NCBI RefSeq assembly: GCF_007752535.1
Contig: NZ_CP036426.1
Location: 5,394,001-5,458,000 of the forward strand
DNA length: 64,000 nucleotides
From: Tautonia plasticadhaerens
GTDB lineage: Bacteria; Planctomycetota; Planctomycetia; Isosphaerales; Isosphaeraceae
Direction: 5' to 3'
The notes beneath the pieces were generated by a model. The model saw only the letters and a list, made by a program, of their open reading frames with translations, made no database searches and was not told the DNA's origin. The position numbers and the translations under genes are program-made. Numbering within the stretch: the stretch's first letter is position 1; each line of letters begins with the position of its first letter. This document shows positions 20,066 through 37,197 of this stretch, one piece after another.

Positions 20066-22207
20066 ATGCATCATGTTTTCGCGATTGCGCTTGTTGTATT
20101 TTCCGTGGCGTCGGGCGGGTCGGCGCGCGGGGAGCTCTCGGCCGGGGCCGCGGTGGTCGACGTGACGCCGGAGCAATTGCCCGTGCTGGTGAACGGGGGG
20201 ATGCTCGGCCGGGAGGCGGACACGGTCAAGACGCCGCTCAGCGCCCGGTCCCTGGTCCTGGACGACGGCGAGGACCGGCTCGCGATCGTCGTCGTCGACA
20301 GTTGCATGATGCCCCGGGCACTGCTCGACGAGGCGAAGGCCGCCGCCGCCGCCCAAACCGGCATCCCGGCCGATCGGATCCTGATCTCGGCCACGCACAC
20401 CCACAGCGCCCCGTCGAGCATGGCCTGCCTCGGCACCGAGGCCGACCCGTCCTACGTACCGTTCCTGCGCCGGAAGCTCGTCGAGGCCATCGCCGGGGCG
20501 GCGGGGAACCTGGAGCCGGCCAGGGTCGGCTGGGGGGTCGTCGATGCGGGCGAGTACACGGCGCTCCGCCGCTGGATCCGGAGGCCCGACCGCCTGGCCG
20601 ACGACCCCTTCGGCAACCCGACCCTCAGGGCCAACATGCACGCCGCCAGCAACTGGGATGACGTGACCGGCGAGTCCGGCCCCGAGGACCCGGACCTCTC
20701 CCTGATCGCCCTGCAATCGGCCGACGGCCGGCCGCTGGCCGTCCTGGCGAACTTCTCGATGCACTACTTCGGCGACCAGTCCCTCAGCGCCGATTACTTC
20801 GGCCTCTTCTGCGAGGGCCTGAAATCCAGGCTGGCCGGCGAGTCCGAGGCCGAGGGCGAGGGCCCGCCCTTCGTCGGCATCATGTCCCACGGTTGCAGCG
20901 GGGACATCTACCGGGTCGACTACGCGAAGCCGCCGGGGTCGCGGGGTGAAGACCTGACGATCCAGTCGTATGCCGATGCGCTCGTCGATCGCGCCGTCGG
21001 CGCCTACGAGTCGATCGAGTTCCGGGCCGACGCCGACCTGGAGATGGCCGAGGCGAGGGTCCCTCTCCGCTACCGCGTGCCGGACGCGCAGCGGCTGGAC
21101 TGGGCCCGTCGGGTCGTCGAGGCGATGGGCGATCGCCCACCGAAGGACACCACGGAGGTCTACGCCCGGGAGCAGCTCATCCTGCACGAGTGGCAGTCGA
21201 CCGAGGTCGTCGTCCAGGCGATCAAGATCGGCGAGCTCGCCATCGCGACCACGCCGACGGAGACCTACGCCCTGACCGGGCTGAAGATCAAGCTCCAGAG
21301 CCCCCTGGAGAAGACCATGGTGATTGAGCTGGCCAACGGCGGGGACGGCTACATCCCGCCCCCGGAGCAGCACCTGCTGGGCGGCTACAACACCTGGGCC
21401 GCGCGGTCGGCCGGGCTGGAGGTCCAGGCCGAGCCGAAGATCGTCGAGGCGGCCCTGGGCCTGCTGGAGGACGTCTCGGGGTGCGATCGGGCCGAGTACC
21501 GCCAGCCGGTCGGCCCGGCGTCGGAGGCGATCCGTTCCCTCCGCCCCGCCGCGTACTGGAGGCTCGATGAGTTCTCCGGCCCGAGGGCGATCGATCATGT
21601 GAACGATCATGACGCCTTCTATGAGCCGGGCGTCGCCTTCTTCCTGGAAGGGCCCCGGCCCGACGCGTTCAGCCCGGGGGGTCGGCCGAACCGCTCGGCC
21701 CACCTCGCGGGGGGGAGGATCGACGCCCGCATCCCGGGGCTCGGCGACCGCTACTCGGTCTCGCTCTGGTGCTGGAACGGCATGCCCGAGGGCGCCCGGG
21801 ACGTCTCCGGTTGGCTCTTCGCCCGGGGCCACGACCGGGACCGGGACGGCGGGAACGACCGGCTGGGGGTGGGGGGGACCGGCGAGGCCCAGGGCCGGTT
21901 GATCTTCAGTCCCGGCGGCCCCGCAGGGGGGGATCGGCCCCTCGTCGGCCGCACGGCGATCGAGCGATGGACGTGGCATCACGTGGTCCTCGTCCGGGAC
22001 GGCGATTCGGTCCGCATCCACCTCGACGGCGACCCCGAGCCGGAGATCGAGGCCCCGGCCGTCGCGGGATCCGCCCCGCGACTCGACCAGATCTTCCTCG
22101 GCGGCCGGTGCGACGGCGATTCGACCTGGGAGGGCCGGCTCGACGAGATCGCGGTCTTCGACCGGGTGCTCACGGTCGAGGAGATCGAGCGGCTCTCACC
22201 TCGTTGA
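20066..22207 (+). CDS. Neutral/alkaline non-lysosomal ceramidase-like protein fused to a LamG domain
   Basis: Exported 713-residue protein. A signal peptide (residues 1-22, MHHVFAIALVVFSVASGG) is followed by a domain related to neutral ceramidase: AAVVDVTPEQLPVLVNGGM, ISATHTHSAPSS (about 111-122) with the zinc/active-site His residues, and LANFSMHYFG. Many planctomycete members act on unknown substrates, so hydrolysis of ceramide is not assured. From about residue 490 a concanavalin-like LamG domain follows (LRPAAYWRLDE, YSVSLWCWNG, IHLDG, and IFLGGRCDGDSTWEGRLDEIAVFDRVL), suggesting carbohydrate or surface binding. The ATG at 20066 is preceded by GGAGAG. It converges on the giant surface-protein gene. 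Confidence 0.88.
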   Translation: MHHVFAIALVVFSVASGGSARGELSAGAAVVDVTPEQLPVLVNGGMLGREADTVKTPLSARSLVLDDGEDRLAIVVVDSCMMPRALLDEAKAAAAAQTGIPADRILISATHTHSAPSSMACLGTEADPSYVPFLRRKLVEAIAGAAGNLEPARVGWGVVDAGEYTALRRWIRRPDRLADDPFGNPTLRANMHAASNWDDVTGESGPEDPDLSLIALQSADGRPLAVLANFSMHYFGDQSLSADYFGLFCEGLKSRLAGESEAEGEGPPFVGIMSHGCSGDIYRVDYAKPPGSRGEDLTIQSYADALVDRAVGAYESIEFRADADLEMAEARVPLRYRVPDAQRLDWARRVVEAMGDRPPKDTTEVYAREQLILHEWQSTEVVVQAIKIGELAIATTPTETYALTGLKIKLQSPLEKTMVIELANGGDGYIPPPEQHLLGGYNTWAARSAGLEVQAEPKIVEAALGLLEDVSGCDRAEYRQPVGPASEAIRSLRPAAYWRLDEFSGPRAIDHVNDHDAFYEPGVAFFLEGPRPDAFSPGGRPNRSAHLAGGRIDARIPGLGDRYSVSLWCWNGMPEGARDVSGWLFARGHDRDRDGGNDRLGVGGTGEAQGRLIFSPGGPAGGDRPLVGRTAIERWTWHHVVLVRDGDSVRIHLDGDPEPEIEAPAVAGSAPRLDQIFLGGRCDGDSTWEGRLDEIAVFDRVLTVEEIERLSPR

Positions 22208-22419: not shown

Positions 22420-22804
22420 GGGGGTGGGACGGCCGGGTCACCGGCCGTCGACGTCGAAGCGATCGAGGCCGGCGAGCACCTCGTCGATGGTGTCGCCGTC
22501 CATCCCCGTGCCTTCGGCCGTGTCGAGTCGGTCGTCGATCGAGGAGAGGACGGGCACGACCCGGGGCCCCCTCGGGCCGAAGGTTGTGGCCTCGACCGTG
22601 CCCCCGGCGAACGGCCGGATCCGCCACTCGCCGAGGATGCGGTCGAAGGAGGCGAGGTCGGCCCGGCCGTCGCCATCGTAGTCGCCGGCGGCGTCGACCG
22701 AGCCGGGGGCTCCGAGGTCGACCATCCCCGTCCCGCCCGACCCGCCCGAGCCGAGGACGAACCACTGGGCCGTGTTCGCGTCGAGGTCGCTGTTGGAGCG
22801 GAAG

Positions 22805-23128
22805 GTGGCGACGTCGGCGAGGCCGTCGCCGTCGTAGTCGGCGGGCACCGGCACGTCCATCCCGCCCGAGGCGCCGAAGAGGACCGAGTAGGCGGCCATG
22901 GGGTCGCTGGAGGGGAGGATGAACCACTCGGCCGCCCCCGGCGTCACGTCGCTGTCGGCGCGAAAAGTGGCGACGTCGGCGAGGCCGTCGCCGTCGTAGT
23001 CGGCGGGCACCGGCACGTCCATCCCGCCCGAGGCGCCGAAGAGGACCGAGTAGGCGGCCATGGGGTCGCTGGAAGGGAGGATGAACCACTCGGCCGCCCC
23101 CGGCGTCACGTCGCTGTCGGCGCGGAAG
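22805..23128 (-). repeat. Tandem 162-bp near-identical repeat in FG-GAP region
   Basis: Two consecutive 54-codon units (22805-22966 and 22967-23128) differ by only about three bases; a third, more diverged copy begins at 23129. Each encodes one FG-GAP-like blade with the DYDGDGLADVATFR calcium loop. The near identity implies recent duplication or gene conversion. Confidence 0.9.
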
Positions 23129-25417
23129 GTGGCGATGTCAGTGACGCCGTCGCCGTCGTAGTCGGCCGGTGCCGGCACGTCGACGAGGTTGGCGGCCCCG
23201 AAGGCGATCACCTGTCGGACGCCGTCGCCGGAGCGCTGGATCGTCCAGGTCGCCGCGTCGCCGCCGAAGTTCGGGCTGAAGACGGCCATGTCGGACCGCC
23301 CGTCGCCGTCGAAGTCGCCGACGACCGGGATATCCCCCTCGCCCCCCATCATGGCCGAGAGCGTCCCGCCCGAGGAGAGCAGGATGTCGAACCGGCCCGA
23401 TCCCAGCGCGGGCAGGTACTCGTAGAGGGCCAGGTCGGCGACCCCGTCGCCGTCGTAATCGCCGAGGACGACGCCCACGGCGAAGGGCAGGGACGCCGAG
23501 GTCGAGCCGAGGTAATCGGCGGTCTCGCCAAAGACGGCCCGGAGTTCGTTGCCCCCGAAGGGGAGGCCGTCGACGGTCAGCGTCGCCGTCCCGTCGACGA
23601 GCATGGCCGAGCCGAGCTCGGTCGAGCCGCTGAAGAAGGTGACGAGGCCGGTCGGGGTCCCGCTCCCGGGGGCGATCGGGGCCACCGAGGCGATGAGGGT
23701 CACCGGCTGGCCGACCACCGAGGAGCCGGCCGAGGTGGTCAGCGTCGCGACCGTCCCGGTCGCCCCGACCTCGATCGGGGAGTCGACCGGGGACCCGGAC
23801 GCGGCGAAGTTGGCGTCCCCGAGGTACCGGAAGGAGACGACGAAGCCGCCGGCGGCGTCGAAGGTCAGGCTGAAGGTCCCCCGGCCGTTGGCGTCGAGCA
23901 GCACCGCGTCCTCGGGGGTCCCGTTGATGAGGACCTCGACCAGCCCGCCCGGCGTCCCGGCACCGGGGGCGATGGCCGACGCATCGAGCATGTACGCGAT
24001 CGGCTGCCCGACCACCGGCGAGGCCGTGCCCCGCGTGACTGCGAGGGACACCCCGGCGTGATTGACCCCCTGGACCACCGGGCTCGAACTGCTGGTCCCG
24101 TATTCGGTCCCCCCCAGGTAGCTGGCCGTGATCGTCCGCCCGCCGACGTCGAGGCCGGAGGTCGAGAAGACGGCCACGCCCGAGCCGTCCAGCACGGCGG
24201 TCCCCAGGACGGTCGTGCCGTCGAGGAAGGCGACGGTGCCGGTCGGCACCGAGGCGCCGAAGGTCGCCGACACCGTCGCGATGAAGGTCACCGACTGGCC
24301 GAAGACGCTCGGGTTCGTCGCCGAAGCGATCGTGGAGACGGTGCCGATCCGGTCCACGACCTGGGACACCGGCGTCTCGTCGGTGCTCGGCAGGTAGGAG
24401 CCGTCCCCCAGGTAGGAGGCGGTGATCTGGTGCGTCCCGACCGCGAGGTTCGAGACGACCAGGGAGGCCAGGCCCGAGCCGTCGAGCGTCGCCGTGCCGA
24501 GGCTCGTCCCGCCGTCGAAGAACTCGACCATCCCCGTCGGCACGCCGACCGCGGCGCCGACGGTCGCGGTGAAGGTGACCGACTGCGAATAGGTCGAGGG
24601 ATTCGGCGCGGCGACCACGCTCGTCGTGGTGCTCGCCAGGATGACCTGCTGACCTCCGGCCAGCGTGCCGGTGCTCGACGAGTAATTGGAGTCGCCCGAA
24701 TACCCGATCGTGACGACGTAGGAGCCGACGGCCAGGCCGCCGATCGGGTCGAAGGTCGCCTGCCCGTCCACGAGCGAGACCGTCTGCCGGTCGATCCCGT
24801 CGATCGACAGCGTCGCGGTCCCGGTCGGGGTGCCCTCGGGCCCGGAGAAGGCGGCCGAGAAGACGATCGTCGAGCCGAAGACCGCCGGATTGCTGCTCGA
24901 GGCGACGAGCATCGAGGGCGAGATCAGCGCGGTCGCCACGACGTCATTCCCGTCCCCGCCGACGTAGCTGATGCTGAAGAGCACGCCGTCGACCGAGAGG
25001 GTGGCCCCCTCGGGGAGCCCGAGGAACGTCCCGGAGATCGCGCCGATCCCGGTATAATTGATGAGGGTGAACTGCTGGCCCCCGGTCGGGATGAACCCAT
25101 CAATGAACGACATCTCAAGGGAGGCGTCGTCGAGGTCCACCGACTCGGTCACCTGGAGCTGGTCGTACTGCGTGCCGACGGCCGCGCCTCCCAGCTCCAT
25201 CTCCAGGATCGAGCCGGCCTCGAAGACCACCGAGTGGGCGGTGAGGAGGCCCGCCGAGGCGCCCGGGGCCACCGTGCCGCCGGTCCGGACCCGCAGGGAG
25301 GGGACCAGGCCGGAACCCCCGAGGGTGGTCGAGTCCTGGACCCAGACCATCGAGCCGCTGGCGATCGAGCCGTCGACCAGCAGCGTACCCCCTTCGACGT
25401 CCGTCCCGTCGGTGTAG

Positions 25418-26260
25418 GTGTTCACGCCCGAGAGGGTCAACGTGCCGCTGCCGACCTTCGACAGCATGCCCACCCCGGTGATGCCGCCGGCGAAGGTGGT
25501 CGAGCTATTGTTCCCGCCGGTGGTCAGGGTGGCATTGGTCAGGACCGTGCCGGCCCCGGCCAGCGAGCCGATCGCCTCGGACGAGGCGAGATTCAGGGAG
25601 GCGCCCGAGGAGACGGACACGGCCGAGGTGTCGGCGATCGCCGCGCCGCCCGAGGCCAGCAGCGTCCCCGCGTTGATCGCCGTCGCGCCGGTGTAGGTGT
25701 TGGTCCCGGAGAGGGTCATCGTGCCGGCGCCGGCCTTGGTCAGCCCGCCCGTCCCGGCGATGCCGCCGGAGAAGGTGGTGGAGCTGCCGTCCCCCCCGGC
25801 GGTGAGGGTGTTGGCGTTGAGCGTGACCGAGCCGGCCCCGGCCAGCGAGCCGATCGCCTCGGACGAGGCGAGATTCAGGGAGGCGCCCGAGGCGACGGAC
25901 ACGGCCGAGGAGTCGGCGATCGCCGACCCGCCCGAGACCAGCAGCGTATTGCCCTGGATCGTCGTCGCCCCGGTGTAGGTGTTGGTCCCGCTGAGGGTGA
26001 AAGTCCCGAGCCCGCTCTTGGTCAGGCCGCCCGAGCCGGAGATTACGCCGCTGAAGGTCGTGCTGGTGTTGTTGTCGCCGGTGGTGAGGACGAAGGTGTC
26101 GAGGTCGACCGAGCCGGCCCCGGCCAGCGAGCCGATCGTCTCGGAGTCGAGCAGGCGGAGCGTCGCCCCGGACGCGACCGTCACGGCCGAGCCGTCGCTG
26201 ATCGCCAGGCCCCCCGAAAATGACAGCGTCCCCGCGACGACGAAGGAGCCGCCCGTGTAG
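25418..26260 (-). repeat. Three tandem 279-282 bp beta-strand-repeat units
   Basis: Units starting near 25418, 25697 and 25979 encode about 93 residues each, with SGxNTYTGAT, IADxSAVSVxSGASLNLAS and SEAIGSLAGAG-type phrases. They are strongly similar but not identical. These are protein repeats; they do not look like a mobile element or CRISPR. Confidence 0.8.
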
Positions 26261-29200
26261 GTGTTCGCGGCGGAGAGGTTCAGCGTGCCGCCGCCGGCCT
26301 TGTACAGGTCTCGGACCGCGATCAACTCCAGGATGATCCCGCTGATCCCGACCGAATGGCCGGACGAGACGAAGACCACGACGTTCAAGCCGGCGAGGGC
26401 GATCGAGTTGTCGATCGTCGTGGTGCCGGTCACGGTCAGGCTGGCGTCTTGATTCAGGGTGATCGTCCCGGCCGGCAGGGCATCGTCGTTGGCGGCCGAG
26501 AGCACCCCGCCGTCCACCACGATCCCGCCGGTCAGGCCCGCCTCGTTGCCGAGATTCGACAGGACCAGAGTCCCGCCGCCGGCCTTGGTCAGCAGGACCG
26601 AGCCGGCCAGGGCCCCGGTGAAGTTGAGCGTGCCACCGGCAGCCACTTCGAGAGACTGGGCCTCGGTCAACTCGGTGGCGAGGTCGAAGGACGAGGTCCC
26701 GGAGGAATAGGTCGTCTCGATCCCTGCGACGAGGTCGATCCCATTGCCGTAGATGTCGTAGCCGGCGCCGGCGATGGTGATCGAGTGGAAGACCGTGCCG
26801 CTGGCGAAGTCGTTGGTGCTCTCGGTCCGGACCGGGCTGGCCGCGAAGATGAGCCTGGAGCCGGCCGTCGGGGCGACGCCGCCGACCCAGTTCTCGCCGA
26901 TCGACCATTCCCGCCCGTCGTCGCTGGCCCCGCTCCAGACGAAGGAGACGTCCGTCACGGTCAGGACGACGTCGTTGCCGTCCCCACCCGCGTAGGTGAT
27001 CGTGAACTCGACGTTGCCCAACTCGAAGGTGGAGCCTTCGGCTAGGCCGTTGAACGTGCCGGTGATCGCGCCGAGGCTGTCTTTGTCGATGATCGTGAAC
27101 GTGTCGCCGATCGAAGGGGCGAAGCCGAGCGAGACGTTCAACGTCGAGCTGCCGAGGTCGACCGAGCCGGAAGCGACGAGCCGGTCGTACTGGGAGCCGA
27201 CGTCCGTCCCGTCGAGGTCGACGTTGTAATTCGACCCGCTCACGAACGTCACGTCGCCCGAACTGAGGATGTCCGGCGAATTGCCCGGGGCGAGCGTGCC
27301 GATGCTCGAGATCGAGACGGCCGGCAGCTCGCCGGTGCCGCCGACGGTGCCATCCACGAAGACCAGGTTGCTCGTGGCGACCGAGCCGTTGACCAGCAGG
27401 AGGCCGTCGCCGACGTTCACGTTCCCCGTGTGCGTGCTCGTCCCCGACAGGACCAGCGTGCCGGTGCCGTTCTTGTCGAAGTCCCTCGACCCGCTGATGG
27501 TCCCGGCAAGCGTCAGCGTGTTGCCGCTGCCGACGGCGAAGGACACGTTGTTGCCGCCGATGATGCTGATGTCGCCCGCGATGGTGTTGTCGCCGAAGAC
27601 GTTGACGATCTTCGACGAGTCCGGGGCCGTGAGGCCTTCCAGGACGATTATCTTCGTACCGGGGAGCGTGATGCCGCCGGAGAGGCCGAGCGAGGCGCCG
27701 CTATTCACATTCACGCTGGTCGAGGTCGTGGGATCGCCCAGGGCGTTGTCGTTGACGACCTCCAGGGTGCCGGACGACGCGGTCACATCGCCGTCGAACA
27801 GGTTGCTGCCGCCGAGGACGACCCGACCGGATGAGTGGCTGACCATGGAGAGGTCGAAGCTGTCGCCGCCGTCGTCGATCACGCCGTTGATCGTCAACGT
27901 TGCACTCACGGACGCACCGATCTGGGAGTCGCCGGCCATCGTGATGGCGCCGGTGAGCGTGGTATCACCTGAGAGGGTGCCCAGTGCTCCCGAGGTCGCG
28001 AGGCCGAGGCCGTCGATCGTGAAGTCTTCCGCGATGCTCAGGCCGCTGCCGCTGAAGAAGACCGAGGCACCGGCGGCGACGGTGGTGTCACCGTCCGTCG
28101 TGCCTAGCGCGGCGTCATTTTCGGCCTGAATCGCGCCGGCCGACACGCTGATGTCGCCACCAAAGGTATTACTGCCGGAGAGCTCCAGGATGCCCGTGCC
28201 GGCCTTGATGATGCCGCCGTTGGAGATGCTGCTCTGCAGGATCGTGCTGATCCGCAAGTCGATGAGTGTCTCGGCGTCGTCTGCGATCGTGAAGGTGTTC
28301 GAGGAGTTGTCGATTTCCAGGGCACCAAGCCCCTGGATGACCGACGTGACGTTGTTCGTCGTGGCGAAGGTGTTGACGCCAACGAAGGTAGACAGGATGC
28401 CCCCGGTGTCGATGTCGACCGTGGAGCCCTGGAGATTCAGATTGCTGATGTGCTGGACGTAGCTCCCGACGTCGAAGGTCGATCCTTCGTTGACCGTCAC
28501 GTCCGAGCCGACCCAGAACTGGTTGTTGCCGGCGACTTGCAACAAGGCGCCCGTCGTGTTGTCGCCGACGATCACCGACCCGTTCGAGGCGATCACGTCG
28601 TCCGGCTTCGCGAGCACCAGGGTGCCGGCGTTGATGGTGGTGCCGCCGTTGTACGAGTTCGCCGACGAGCCCGTGTACCGCAGCGTGCCGCTGCCGTCCT
28701 TGGTCACCCCGTAGAGGTCGCCGGGGTTGTCGAAGGAGATGACGTTCTCCATGACGAGCGTGCCGCCGTCGGCCACATCGATGGTGATGCTATCCGTCAT
28801 CCGGACGTCGAGGGTGATGGTCGACGTGCCCATGCCGTACGTGGCGGCGATCGTCCCGTCCAGGTCGATCACGTTCCCCGAGAGCGAGTAGCCGGCCCCC
28901 GCGATCGTGATGTTGGCGAAGTTCGTGTTGCCGGCGAAGTCGTTGGTGTTCGAGAGCCGGGCCGCTTGGTCGGCGAAGACGAGGCTGGAACCGGCGGTCG
29001 GCGCGACGTCATCCAGCCAGTTGGCGGCCGTGGTCCAGTTGCTGTCGCCGCCGCCGCCGTCCCAGGTGTAGGTGATGCTGGTCAGCGTCAGCACGACGTC
29101 ATTGTCATTCGAGCCACCGACATAGGTGATGGTGAATTCGTAGACGCCGTCCTGGAACGTCGTCCCCTCGGCCAGGCCGCCGAAGGTGCCCGTGACCGCG

Positions 29201-30338
29201 TCGGCGTCATCGTTGTTGATTATGATGAATTCATCACCGATCGTCGGCGTGAAGCCGAGTTCCACGACGAGGGTCGCGTTGCCGAGGCCCACCGTGCCGG
29301 TGACGTCGAGCTGGTCGTACTGGGTGCCGACGGTCGTCCCGTCCAGCTCGACCACGAAGGCCGAACCGCTCTCGAAGGCGACGTTGCCGGTGGAAAGGAT
29401 GCCCGGAGAGTTCCCCGGCGAGATCGTCCCCCCGGCGTTCACCGTGACCCCGGAGACCGTCCCGCTCCCGCCCAGCGTGGCGCCGCTGGCAACCGACACA
29501 TCGGCGATGCTGCCGTTGACGATCAGGGTCCCGGCGTTGAGGCTCGTCGAGTCGAGGTAGGTATTGGTCTCGTCCAGGATCAGGATCCCGGCCCCGTTCT
29601 TGTTCACGCCGTAGCCATTGCCGTTGTCATTAATGATTCCGGAAATCGTGAGCGACGAGGACGCGGAGACATCGAACGTCGCGTTCACCCCCAGGTCCAT
29701 CGGACCGCTCAGGGTGTTGTCCCCGCTCGAATTGGAGATCGCCGTGCTACTGGATGCGACGAACAGGTTGTTGGCGACCGTGATTCCGCCGGAGAGATCC
29801 AGCGTGCCCGTCGCCAGGATGTTCACTATGCCGATGCCCGCGCCGGCGTCGTTACTGATGGCCAGCACGCCGGCGTTGATGTTCGTCCCGCCGCTGTAGG
29901 TGTTCGCTCCCGACAGAGCTAGCGTGCCGGCGCCGTCCTTGAGGATGTTGTTGCCCGAGGAGACGACCGCCGAGATCTCGAGATCCACCCCGCTGGCGGT
30001 GGTGCCGTCGGCCACGGTGAGGAAATTATTCGGGCCGCCGAACGAGAGGTTCCCGCTGATGCTCGCCGTGGTCGACGACGCGTTCGAGGTGATGAAACCG
30101 CCCGAGTCGATCGTCAGGATGTTGCTGCCCGTCGTCACCGCGCCGCCGGTGAAGGACAGCCCGAAGATCGTCTCATTGGCATTATTCAACTCCAGTACGG
30201 CCGGGGCCGTGAGCGACACGGCGGAGGCGTCGGGGATCGCCGCGCCGTTCCTCAGCACCAGGGTGCCGTCGTTGATGACGGTGGCCCCGCCGTAGGCGTT
30301 CGTCCCCGAGAGGACGAGCGTGCCGCCCCCGGCCTTCG

Positions 30339-30821
30339 TCAGATCGACACCCCCCCCCCGAAGATGGAATCGTCCGCGATGAGCTCGCCGCCGGTAGCGA
30401 CGTCGAAGGTCTGCGTGCTCTGGAGGTTGATGAAGGCGTCGATGGTGGACGTGCCGGCGGTGTACGTCGTCGTGATCGAGCCGTCGAGGTCGATCTCGTT
30501 CCCACCAAGGCTGTAGCCCGAGGCATTGATGGTAATGCTGGCGAAGTTCGTGTTGCCGGCGAAGTCGTTGGTGTTCGTGAGCTGGGCCGCGCCGGTGGGG
30601 AAAACCAGCTCGTCATTCTCGACGGGCGCGGTGTCGTCCACCCAGTTCGCGGCGGTCGTCCAGAGCGCATCGCCGCCGCCGCCGTCCCAGATCCGGGTCG
30701 CCAGCAGCCGCCGATGTTCGAGCAATTCCATGTCCAGGTTCACGCGTCGCCGTCGCGCCCGCTCGCGGGTATCCGTCTTCGAGACCGACCGACCGTTTCG
30801 CGAACCGGGACGCTCAAACAT
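30339..30821 (-). CDS. N-terminal segment of the giant surface protein, out of frame with the rest
   Basis: 160-codon ORF starting MFERPGSRNGRSVSKTD. A basic region is followed by the planctomycete extracellular motif MELLEHRRLLA (about residues 31-41), which matches the Planc_extracel N-terminal signature of many exported planctomycete giants. Directly after it comes IWDGGGGDALWTTAANW, the module opener that recurs at about 29075 in the main segment. The frame runs through ten G (coding strand) and stops a few codons later at TGA (30339). One extra G, or two fewer, would fuse it to the main ORF. It is therefore the natural start of the gene and not a separate protein. Confidence 0.75.
   Translation of the reverse strand: MFERPGSRNGRSVSKTDTRERARRRRVNLDMELLEHRRLLATRIWDGGGGDALWTTAANWVDDTAPVENDELVFPTGAAQLTNTNDFAGNTNFASITINASGYSLGGNEIDLDGSITTTYTAGTSTIDAFINLQSTQTFDVATGGELIADDSIFGGGVSI
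30350..30359. repeat. Ten-base C homopolymer at the frame break
   Basis: C10 on the plus strand (G10 on the coding strand) lies exactly where the giant gene changes frame. It may be a genuine slippage site for on/off variation or a base-calling length error. Confidence 0.85.
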
Positions 30822-32667: not shown

Positions 32668-35600
32668 TCATCCGTCGGGCGAAGTCGGCCGGGGAACGAT
32701 GTTGCGGAGGAGTTCGACCAGGTGGTCGGGGTCCACCGGCTTGACGAGGTGGTGGTCGAACCCGGCCTCCCTCGACCGCCGCCGGTCGGCCTCCTGGCCC
32801 CAGCCGGTCAGGGCCACCAGCGGAGTCCGCTCGAACTCGGGGAGGCCCCGCAGCCGCCGGGCGACCTCGTGGCCGTCCATGCCCGGCAGGCCGATGTCGA
32901 GCAGGACGACCTCGGGGCGGAATCGCGCGGCGACCTCCAGGGCCGAGGGGCCGTCGTGGGCGACCTCGACCTCCTGGCCGTGGATCCTGGCCAGCACCCG
33001 GGCCATGACGACGGCGGCGTCCACGTTGTCGTCCACGATGAGGATCCGGCGGCGGGGCAAGGGCCCCTCGTCGTCATCATTCCGCCCCCCCTTCGGCCGG
33101 GCCGGCTCGGGCGTCGCGCCCGGCGAGACGGGCAGGCGGACGAGGAACTCGCTCCCCCGCCCGGGCCCCTCGCTGTTCGCCGAGATCGAGCCGCCGTGCA
33201 GCTCGACCAGGGTCCGGACCAGGCCGAGGCCGATCCCCAGCCCGCCCTGGGAGTGATCCCGGTGTTCGCCGAGCTGGACGAACATCTGGAAGAGACGGGG
33301 CAGCATCGCCGGCTCGATGCCGATCCCCGTATCCTTCACCCGGACGAGGACCTGACTGCCCTCGGCCTCCGCCGTGAGGTCGATCCGCCCGCCGGGGCCG
33401 GTATACTTGGCGGCGTTGTTCAGCAGGTTCCAGAAGACCTGCTCCAGCCTTGTGGGGTCGGCCTCCAGCCGGATCGGCCCCCCGGGGAGCGAGACGCTCA
33501 GGCGATGGCCGCGGTCGTCGAGCTGGGGACGGGCCGTCTCGACGGCCTGCCGCACGACCGTGTTTAGATCCACCACCTCCCTGTGCAGCTCCAGCCGGCC
33601 CTTGCTGATGCGGGCCACGTCCATCAGGTCGTCGATCAGCCGGGCGAGGTGGACGACCTGCCGCTCCGCCATCGCCCGCACCCGCTCGTGGCCGCCGTCG
33701 TCCGGCTCCCTCATCAGGTGCAGGGCGGTGCGGATCGGGGCCAATGGGTTGCGGAGCTCGTGCGCCAGGGTCGCCAGGAAGTCGTCCTTGCGACGGTCGG
33801 CGTCCCGCAGCTGCTCCTCGAACCGCCTCCGCTCGGTCACGTCCGAATTGACGGCGACGGCCCCGGCGATCTTCCCGTTGAGGAGGACCGGCGCGGCGGC
33901 CACCCGGACGTGGACGTCCTCGTCGCGATCGACCCGCCGGATCACCACCTCCTCGATCACCGTCTCGCCCCGCAGCGCCCGGGCGAACTGCAACTCCTCC
34001 GGCTTCAGGGGCTCCCCGCTCCCCGGCCATCGGACGGAGATCTCGCCCATCAGGTCGGCGATGCCGCGTCGCAGGTCGGCCGGGGACGTGAACCCGAGCA
34101 TCTCGAGCGCGTTTGCGTTGCACTTGGTCATCCCCTCCGCCGTGCCGACGTAGACCGCATCGGGGATGCTGTCGATGACCGCGTCGAGTTCGGCGGCCCG
34201 CCGCTCGGCGACCTCCTCGGCGCGCATGCGATCGGTGATGTCGTCGTGGACCAGGACCACCTCCCGGACCCGGCCGGCGGGGTCCTTCAGGGGGTAGGCG
34301 ACGGCGGCGACCCAGCGGCGGGGGTCGCCGTGGCGGGTCCGGCCGGGGATCGTCTCGTTCGGGTCGTACTCGATCGCCGGGATCCGGGCCGGCTGCCCGT
34401 CGAAGGCCCGGCGGATGAGCGGCAGGACGCCCTTCGCCTCCAGTTGGGCGTCGGCCAGGACGTTGTAATCGGCGATCCGGTCGAGCGTGAGGCCCCACAA
34501 GTCCTCCCAGGCCCGGTTGACCGCGAGGGTCCGACCGTCGGGGTCGAGGACCTGGACGCTGAAGGGGGCCTGCTCCATCAGGCCGCGGAACCGGCCCTCG
34601 CTCTCCAGCAGTGCCGCCTCGGCCCGCCTCCGCTCGGTGACGTCCTCGACGACCGCCACCACCCGCTCGGGGCGCTCGCCGCCGTCCCGGATGAGCGAGA
34701 CGGCCGCCCGGCACCAGACCGTCGTCCCGTCCTTGCGGACGTAGCGTTTCTCGATGGTGTAGCTCGACGGGCCCTCGGCGACCCGCCCGAACCGCTCCAG
34801 GTTCGCCGGCGGGTCGTCGGGATGGGTGATGTCGTGGAAGCGCAGGCCGATCAGCTCCTCGGCCCCGTAGCCGACGATCGCGCAGTAGCGGTCGTTGGCC
34901 CGGAGGAAGCGGCCGGCGAGGTCCACCTCGGCGATGCCGACCGTCGCCTGGTCGTAGACCGCCCGGTATTGCGCCTCGCTGGCCCGAAGCCGCTCCTCGG
35001 CGAGTTTCCGCCCGGTGATGTCCATGCCGACGCCGATCATGCGGGACGGGCGGCCGCCGCCGTCGTCGTAAACCTTGCCATTGCCGGACATCCAGCCGAC
35101 CGAGCCGTCGGGCCGGAGGACGCGGAACTCGACCTCGTAGCCCGACCGCCCCTCGATCGAGGCGGCGACCGCCGCCTCGACCCGCCCCCGGTCCTCGGGA
35201 TGGATCAGGAGGCGGAAGCCCTCCATCGTGCCATCGAAGCCGCCTGAGGGCAGGCCGTGGATCTCCGGCAGGTTGTCCGACCACTCGACCCGGCCGGTGC
35301 CGATGTCCCAGTCCCACGTCCCCATGCGGCCGGCCTCCAGCGCCAGCCGCAGCCGCTCCTCGCCCCGCCGCAGCGCCTCCTCGGACCGGCGGCGGTCGTC
35401 GATGTCGGTCGCCGTCCCGAAACGCCGGGTCACCCGGCCGTCCTCGTCCCGCGCCGGGGCCGAGCGGACGAGGTGCCAGCGGTAGGCCCCGTCGGCCCGT
35501 CGCAGCCGGACCTCGGCATCGAAGAGCTCTCCCTCGCCGACGGCGCTGGCCCGCATGGCGTCGAGCCGGGCCTGGTCGTCGGGGTGCACGGCCTCCCGCC

Positions 35601-36504
35601 AGCCGTCTCGGGCCAGGGACGCCTCGGGCGTCATCCCGGTGTACTCGAACCAGCGGCCGTTGAACGAGTCCACCGCCCCGGCGGCGGTCGCCGTCCAGAC
35701 GATCTGCGGCATCGAGTCGGCCAGCTGCCGGAGCTGCCCCTCGCGCTCCCGCAACGCCGCCTCGGCCGCCTTCCGGCCGGTGACGTCCTCCTGGACGCAG
35801 ACGCGGTATCGACGGCCGTCCCGGGTGATTTCGGTGATCCGGGCGAAGGCCCAGAAGGGGGTCCCGTCCTTGCGGCGGCTCCGCCACTCGCCGGACCACG
35901 AGCCCTCGGCCTTCAACCGCTCGATGGCCCCGGCGACGAACCGGGCGCCCTCCTCGGGCGGGCCGTCGTTGCGGGATCCCAGGTGCCGGCCGACCAGCTC
36001 CCCGGGGCCGTAGCCGAAGAGGCGGTCCTCGGCCGGGTTTGTGTAGACGATGGTGCCATCCTCGTCGGCGATGCTGACCCCCTCGGTCATGCTCTCCAGG
36101 ACGAGGGCCTGCAAGGCCAGGTGCCCCTCGGCCCGCCGTCGCCCCTCGGCCTCTCGCTCCAGCCGCAGGCGGACGGCACGGAAGGCCCGCCCGATCCGGA
36201 TGGCCCCCACGCCGAGGACGAGGTAGAGCCCCACCCTGGTCAGCAGGGCCCCTTCGGGGAGCGCCCCCATCCCCGAATGACTGAGGGAGAGCGTCAGGCC
36301 CAACAGGCCGCCGGAGGCCAGGGCCAGCACCGCGGGGCCGGTGCCGCAGAGCCAGGCGGCCAGGGCGACGGCGACGACGTAGATGCCGAACGGATATTGG
36401 GCACCCAGGGCGGGCCGGAGGGCCAGGCGCGCCACCGTGGCCAGGAGCACGGCGAGGATCGCCCCGCCGTATCGGGCGAGGGTCGGGCGGGAGGGCTGAC
36501 TCAT
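32668..36504 (-). CDS. Hybrid sensor histidine kinase/response regulator with multiple PAS domains
   Basis: 1,278-residue membrane-bound hybrid kinase. The start MSQPSRPTLARYGG (36504) gives an N-terminal DUF4118-like region with several helices (LALRPALGAQYPFGIYVVAV, WLCGTGPAVLALASGGLLGL). Six PAS/PAC units follow, roughly at residues 120-235, 255-370, 375-500, 503-625, 630-755 and 765-895, each opening with a QYRAVYDQA/RGLMEQAP-type phrase. The HisKA H-box HELRNPLAPI is near residue 913, the HATPase region has VFWNLLNNAAKYTGPGG and GGLGIGLGL, and the REC domain has the phospho-acceptor in VVLLDIGLPGMDG (about residue 1199) and the Lys in HHLVKPV. The input is unknown. It could signal through a separate phosphotransfer protein, which is not adjacent. 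Confidence 0.93.
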   Translation of the reverse strand: MSQPSRPTLARYGGAILAVLLATVARLALRPALGAQYPFGIYVVAVALAAWLCGTGPAVLALASGGLLGLTLSLSHSGMGALPEGALLTRVGLYLVLGVGAIRIGRAFRAVRLRLEREAEGRRRAEGHLALQALVLESMTEGVSIADEDGTIVYTNPAEDRLFGYGPGELVGRHLGSRNDGPPEEGARFVAGAIERLKAEGSWSGEWRSRRKDGTPFWAFARITEITRDGRRYRVCVQEDVTGRKAAEAALREREGQLRQLADSMPQIVWTATAAGAVDSFNGRWFEYTGMTPEASLARDGWREAVHPDDQARLDAMRASAVGEGELFDAEVRLRRADGAYRWHLVRSAPARDEDGRVTRRFGTATDIDDRRRSEEALRRGEERLRLALEAGRMGTWDWDIGTGRVEWSDNLPEIHGLPSGGFDGTMEGFRLLIHPEDRGRVEAAVAASIEGRSGYEVEFRVLRPDGSVGWMSGNGKVYDDGGGRPSRMIGVGMDITGRKLAEERLRASEAQYRAVYDQATVGIAEVDLAGRFLRANDRYCAIVGYGAEELIGLRFHDITHPDDPPANLERFGRVAEGPSSYTIEKRYVRKDGTTVWCRAAVSLIRDGGERPERVVAVVEDVTERRRAEAALLESEGRFRGLMEQAPFSVQVLDPDGRTLAVNRAWEDLWGLTLDRIADYNVLADAQLEAKGVLPLIRRAFDGQPARIPAIEYDPNETIPGRTRHGDPRRWVAAVAYPLKDPAGRVREVVLVHDDITDRMRAEEVAERRAAELDAVIDSIPDAVYVGTAEGMTKCNANALEMLGFTSPADLRRGIADLMGEISVRWPGSGEPLKPEELQFARALRGETVIEEVVIRRVDRDEDVHVRVAAAPVLLNGKIAGAVAVNSDVTERRRFEEQLRDADRRKDDFLATLAHELRNPLAPIRTALHLMREPDDGGHERVRAMAERQVVHLARLIDDLMDVARISKGRLELHREVVDLNTVVRQAVETARPQLDDRGHRLSVSLPGGPIRLEADPTRLEQVFWNLLNNAAKYTGPGGRIDLTAEAEGSQVLVRVKDTGIGIEPAMLPRLFQMFVQLGEHRDHSQGGLGIGLGLVRTLVELHGGSISANSEGPGRGSEFLVRLPVSPGATPEPARPKGGRNDDDEGPLPRRRILIVDDNVDAAVVMARVLARIHGQEVEVAHDGPSALEVAARFRPEVVLLDIGLPGMDGHEVARRLRGLPEFERTPLVALTGWGQEADRRRSREAGFDHHLVKPVDPDHLVELLRNIVPRPTSPDG

Positions 36505-37197
36505 GGTCGGACCGTTCGGCTCTCGACTCGGCAACGATCCCCCGACTCCCGGCCGTCGGCACCGTCGGGTCGGGGCGGCACCCTACTCTATCAGATCGGA
36601 TCGGCAGCCTCTCCGCCCGACGGACCGATCGGCGGGCTACGGGCCGCCGAGGGAGGACCGCCGACGCCCCGATCGACGACGAGGCCATCGCCCGGTGCCG
36701 GGTTCCTCCCGTCATTCCGATCGCAGCGATGATCGCCCGCACCGCGATCGGGCGATCCCGCCGCCCACATCCCTGCCGCCGAGGCCTGCCCCGGTCGGCG
36801 GCGGGCACGGCCGGTGCAGAGCCCCCGATCCTCAGGGCCGACTCCGGGCCTCGTCCGCCCCAACGGACCTCGACCGACCGGCCGGCTCTTCGTCTCGCGG
36901 GTACCACATTCTGCGTCCAGGCGGCAGGGGCAGCGGACGAAGGCATCCCAGACACCCCGTGAGGTCCGACCGCCCTGCACTCGGGGTCGACCTCACGACC
37001 GCCATTCGGCCCGGATCGGGCGCAGTCGCCGTGACCATCGCAGGCCGCAGGCCGGTAGGATCGACCCCGGGCGATTCCCGCGTGACTCGTTGTCGCGTCC
37101 CAATTGCGCCCGATTCCATCGGGGAACGGTCGACCGCCCGGAGGGTGACGGACCTCCCTCGACCGCGGGCGGGACCGAATGTCCGGAGATCGAGGAC
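36505..37197. other. Intergenic region between kinase and acetyltransferase genes
   Basis: About 690 bp separating divergent genes. No recognisable product; local open frames are GC-driven. Presumably contains both promoters. Confidence 0.55.

Follow-up and report, generated by a model that had tools for sequence, protein, structure and literature searches.

The two reading frames into which the reference assembly of Tautonia plasticadhaerens divides a giant beta-strand-repeat protein are most likely a single intact gene for a secreted or surface protein, and the break between them a one-base under-call of a G run in the assembly. We place the probability of this reading at about 0.7. A true run of eleven G would have been read as ten, with loss of the frame, and an assembly that under-calls some of its long C/G runs would provide one cause for all of the breaks described here. 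The arithmetic of the frame and the continuity of the protein were observed directly, as were comparable breaks in unrelated genes, one of them essential, at other long C/G runs.

Results

The broken gene lies on the reverse strand of the window, the 64,000-nucleotide stretch of DNA analysed here, and its run of G appears as C on the forward strand (Table 1). The original prediction held that a planctomycete-type N-terminal piece and a long remainder join at a run of ten C, and that lengths of 8 or 11 would restore the frame. The run is indeed exactly ten C, followed by a remainder of 2,636 codons, and either length yields a single open reading frame of about 2,794 amino acids. As assembled, the upstream frame proceeds from the ATG through 153 codons, adds FGGGVSI and ends at a TGA. 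When run lengths of 5 to 14 were tried, 5, 8, 11 and 14 gave an open frame of 2,792-2,795 codons to position 22438, and 6, 7, 9, 10, 12 and 13 gave an early stop.

A start of its own for the downstream frame was considered and rejected. No ATG, GTG or TTG precedes the GTG at 30258, so that the first start codon comes 92 bases past the run, and the leader is absent. The first module, joined over the run, aligns along its full length with internal modules of the protein that have no break (38% over 429 columns), and the protein also aligns to relatives across the junction. This continuous alignment indicates that the two halves are one gene, broken at one place, in agreement with the earlier suggestion that both sides belong to one protein family. 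The downstream frame stays open throughout with normal GC3, and no further lesion was found in the remaining 7.9 kb. Decay of this frame had been named in advance as an outcome adverse to the prediction and was not seen; its undecayed state speaks against an old pseudogene.

Table 1. Positions of the broken surface-protein gene, its parts, and other genes out of frame at C/G runs. Entries with a strand are window coordinates; the others are locus or chromosome coordinates.
Feature	Position	Strand	Remark
Whole gene, giant beta-strand-repeat surface protein	22438..30821	-	ATG 30821, stop 22438; ~2,794 aa at 8 or 11 G
N-terminal piece as assembled	30339..30821	-	160 aa, ending FGGGVSI*
LEHRRLLA, LEPR-XLL-like planctomycete N-terminal motif	30699..30722	-	regular expression; no curated model match
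G10 homopolymer, frame change -1	30350..30359	-	exactly ten C on + strand
Premature TGA, upstream frame	30339..30341	-	eleven bases past run
Downstream reading frame without leader	22438..30349	-	2,636 codons after run
Best of five Big_3_5 Ig-like domains	24355..24615	-	
Best of six FG-GAP repeats, near C-terminus	23260..23328	-	
dTMP kinase gene	L257:1493-2112; run at chromosome ~2800237-2800248		out of frame at C10 as assembled
Biosynthetic acetolactate synthase large subunit (TIGR00118)	L216 / G000:C1:1406876-1408593		split at C12; run at chromosome 1407427-1407438
NUDIX gene	L225:1501-1511		out of frame; G/C runs of 9-11 in this and the next three
DUF1214 gene	L210:1501-1511		out of frame
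bpX3 gene	L263:2702-2712		out of frame
Glycosyltransferase gene	L249:333-341		out of frame

The surface character proposed for the protein is supported by its domains. The downstream part contains 11 PATR/autotransporter-type repeats (PF12951 / TIGR02601; 11 stretches above cut-off, 147.9 and 199.5 bits), five Ig-like domains and six FG-GAP repeats. In this combination, and as a long protein of secreted type, it resembles known PATR proteins. It differs from them in that its leader is LEPR-XLL-like and in that its Pfam matches include no C-terminal outer-membrane barrel family, which sets it apart from a classical type V autotransporter. The motif LEHRRLLA agrees with the planctomycete N-terminus that had been proposed, and a regular expression found LEPR-XLL-like starts in nine further ORFs within the 2.5 Mb sampled. 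The gene is unmatched in three congeners and is, judging by sequence comparison, accessory. The best relative belongs to a different genus within the family; it has no break and shares 61% identity in the best-aligned stretch. The scan for relatives covered genome contigs other than those of the window's own genome; a homopolymer at the junction was seen in none of the relatives, all of them distant (at best 61% identical).

We then consider how common such runs are. The genome of strain ElP comprises 9,395,224 bp, with five plasmids of 0.28, 0.14, 0.12, 0.09 and 0.09 Mb (PMC7716859). C/G runs of exactly ten number 94 in 9.4 Mb, or about 0.64 per 64 kb, with 18 longer ones, and those of ten mostly lie in frame within ordinary genes. 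A ten-base run as such is therefore ordinary and not above chance; what is unusual about the run in the surface gene is its out-of-frame position. In a 1.96-Mb sample, runs of nine, ten and eleven numbered 85, 21 and 2, against a first-order Markov expectation of about 148, 53 and 19. The longer the run, the greater the shortfall (a ratio of about 0.4 for ten bases and about 0.1 for eleven), whether because long runs are selected against or because they are under-called.

Frame breaks at runs were counted in about 2 Mb of 20-kb tiles, together with the surroundings of most runs at least ten bases long. Each run was classified by a codon-usage test on 150 bases to either side; only runs flanked on either side by coding sequence enter the counts, the classification takes in 63 of the 94 ten-base runs, and the counts do not single out which individual run is wrong. 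At runs of seven and eight, 435 were in frame and ten changed frame, the latter at ordinary gene junctions or at a transposase-like pair. The members of that pair meet in different frames at a G7 (L115:2900-2906), which could be the programmed frameshift of an insertion sequence.

Longer runs put a larger share of the sampled genes out of frame: about 1/66 at nine bases (65 in frame, with a glycosyltransferase broken), about 2/30 at ten (28 in frame, with the surface gene and dTMP kinase broken) and about 4/11 at eleven or twelve (7 in frame, with acetolactate synthase, NUDIX, DUF1214 and bpX3 proteins broken). Breaks at eleven or more compared with nine to ten gave a Fisher p of about 0.001, dTMP kinase not yet being counted. 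Six of seven breaks, a small sample, shift the frame the same way, as though the run were one base too short or two too long; this is the direction of a deletion error. When the edge cases at ten-base runs were read singly, all except dTMP kinase proved to lie at the correctly framed start or end of a gene, or outside coding sequence.

dTMP kinase is an essential enzyme. Its gene is identified by TIGR00041 (151 bits against a cut-off of 83), and the 2.5 Mb sampled contain no second copy. The one usual start codon of the gene stands just ahead of the run, and 8 or 11 bases restore the frame, the same lengths as in the surface gene. For acetolactate synthase, orthologues in three congeners are unbroken and 92-94% identical, and paralogues within the T. 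plasticadhaerens genome reach at most 37% identity. A real genome in which both of these genes are broken is improbable.

Discussion

The original prediction left the choice between a slippage switch and an error, and it is the error that our results favour. The same assembly that splits the surface gene also cuts dTMP kinase and acetolactate synthase at similar runs, and for this reason a miscount is preferred to an on/off switch. We infer that this break and those in the other genes are consensus errors and not real mutations. Frame breaks that depend on run length and fall in genes of any function, essential ones included, are what homopolymer error in an assembly would produce. The ElP genome was presumably sequenced by PacBio. 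Long-read assemblies most often err by deletion within homopolymers (PMC12007338), and the breaks described here share with those errors their short indels, mainly deletions, that split genes irrespective of function; they differ in being deduced from the finished sequence alone and in occurring at longer runs than in that study. Another planctomycete genome, assembled from PacBio reads and corrected with Illumina, was rated QV60 (PMC5177795), and a survey of frame transitions attributes frameshifts that stand alone, outside clusters, to sequencing error or indel mutation (PMC3711429). Against an under-call stands the observation that the majority of ten-base runs within genes keep the frame, which implies that the assembly is usually right there.

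A genuine frameshift, or real variation in length, is less likely than an under-call by the assembly. Should the run truly be ten G, the surface protein would have been lost in the sequenced culture too recently for the remaining frame to decay. We regard this as unlikely, although such a loss is plausible under laboratory culture, G runs are mutable and the gene, unmatched in congeners, seems accessory: there is no second lesion in 7.9 kb, and dTMP kinase and acetolactate synthase, neither of which a cell is likely to lose, carry the same kind of break. Less probable still is slipped-strand phase variation, by which replication would shift the run and turn the protein on (8, 11) or off (9, 10), in the manner of the poly-G contingency genes of Neisseria, Campylobacter and Helicobacter. 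The likeness to such phase-variable surface genes (PMC3711429) is real in that a mononucleotide tract of ten lies towards the 5' end of a large gene for a surface protein and sets the frame by its length. Here, however, the tract is neither enriched nor conserved, and equivalent tracts break housekeeping genes. In-frame runs of ten occur in ordinary genes, the nine further LEPR-XLL-like ORFs sampled have no run over nine and none near the N-terminus, no relative (at best 61% identical) keeps the tract, and MutS and MutL are present in the genome. With a tract that is unenriched, unconserved and not specific to surface genes, and with mismatch repair genes present, the phase variation proposed for this adhesin-like gene is unsupported, and no report of phase variation in planctomycetes was found in the titles and abstracts of the papers searched.

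It could also be imagined that the ten-G run is productive, with -1 frameshifting or transcriptional slippage yielding some full-length protein. G GGG GGG permits perfect -1 re-pairing and the TGA follows four codons on, but the RNA beyond the run shows no unusual degree of structure (z -1.4), the slippery tract is unconserved among relatives and slippage would need to rescue unrelated genes too; we consider this very improbable. As a programmed -1 frameshift gene the locus was likewise rejected, its slippery G run being accompanied by neither a supported stimulatory structure nor conservation of the site. Least probable of all is that the runs are real and that the bacterium tolerates G/C runs out of frame in many of its genes, even essential ones, through slippage in replication, transcription or translation, with length tuning expression genome-wide. 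Were the runs real, this would be a striking case of gene expression dependent on slippage.

If under-calling by the assembly is instead the cause, as we favour, several genes of the T. plasticadhaerens reference genome, including dTMP kinase and acetolactate synthase, are probably wrongly split at long C/G runs, and a false claim of planctomycete phase variation is averted. As to the surroundings of the surface gene, a large hybrid histidine kinase with several PAS domains and a receiver domain lies upstream (window 32668-36534, reverse strand), and the convergent neighbour (window 20066-22207, forward strand) combines a ceramidase-like N-terminal part with a laminin-G-like C-terminal domain.
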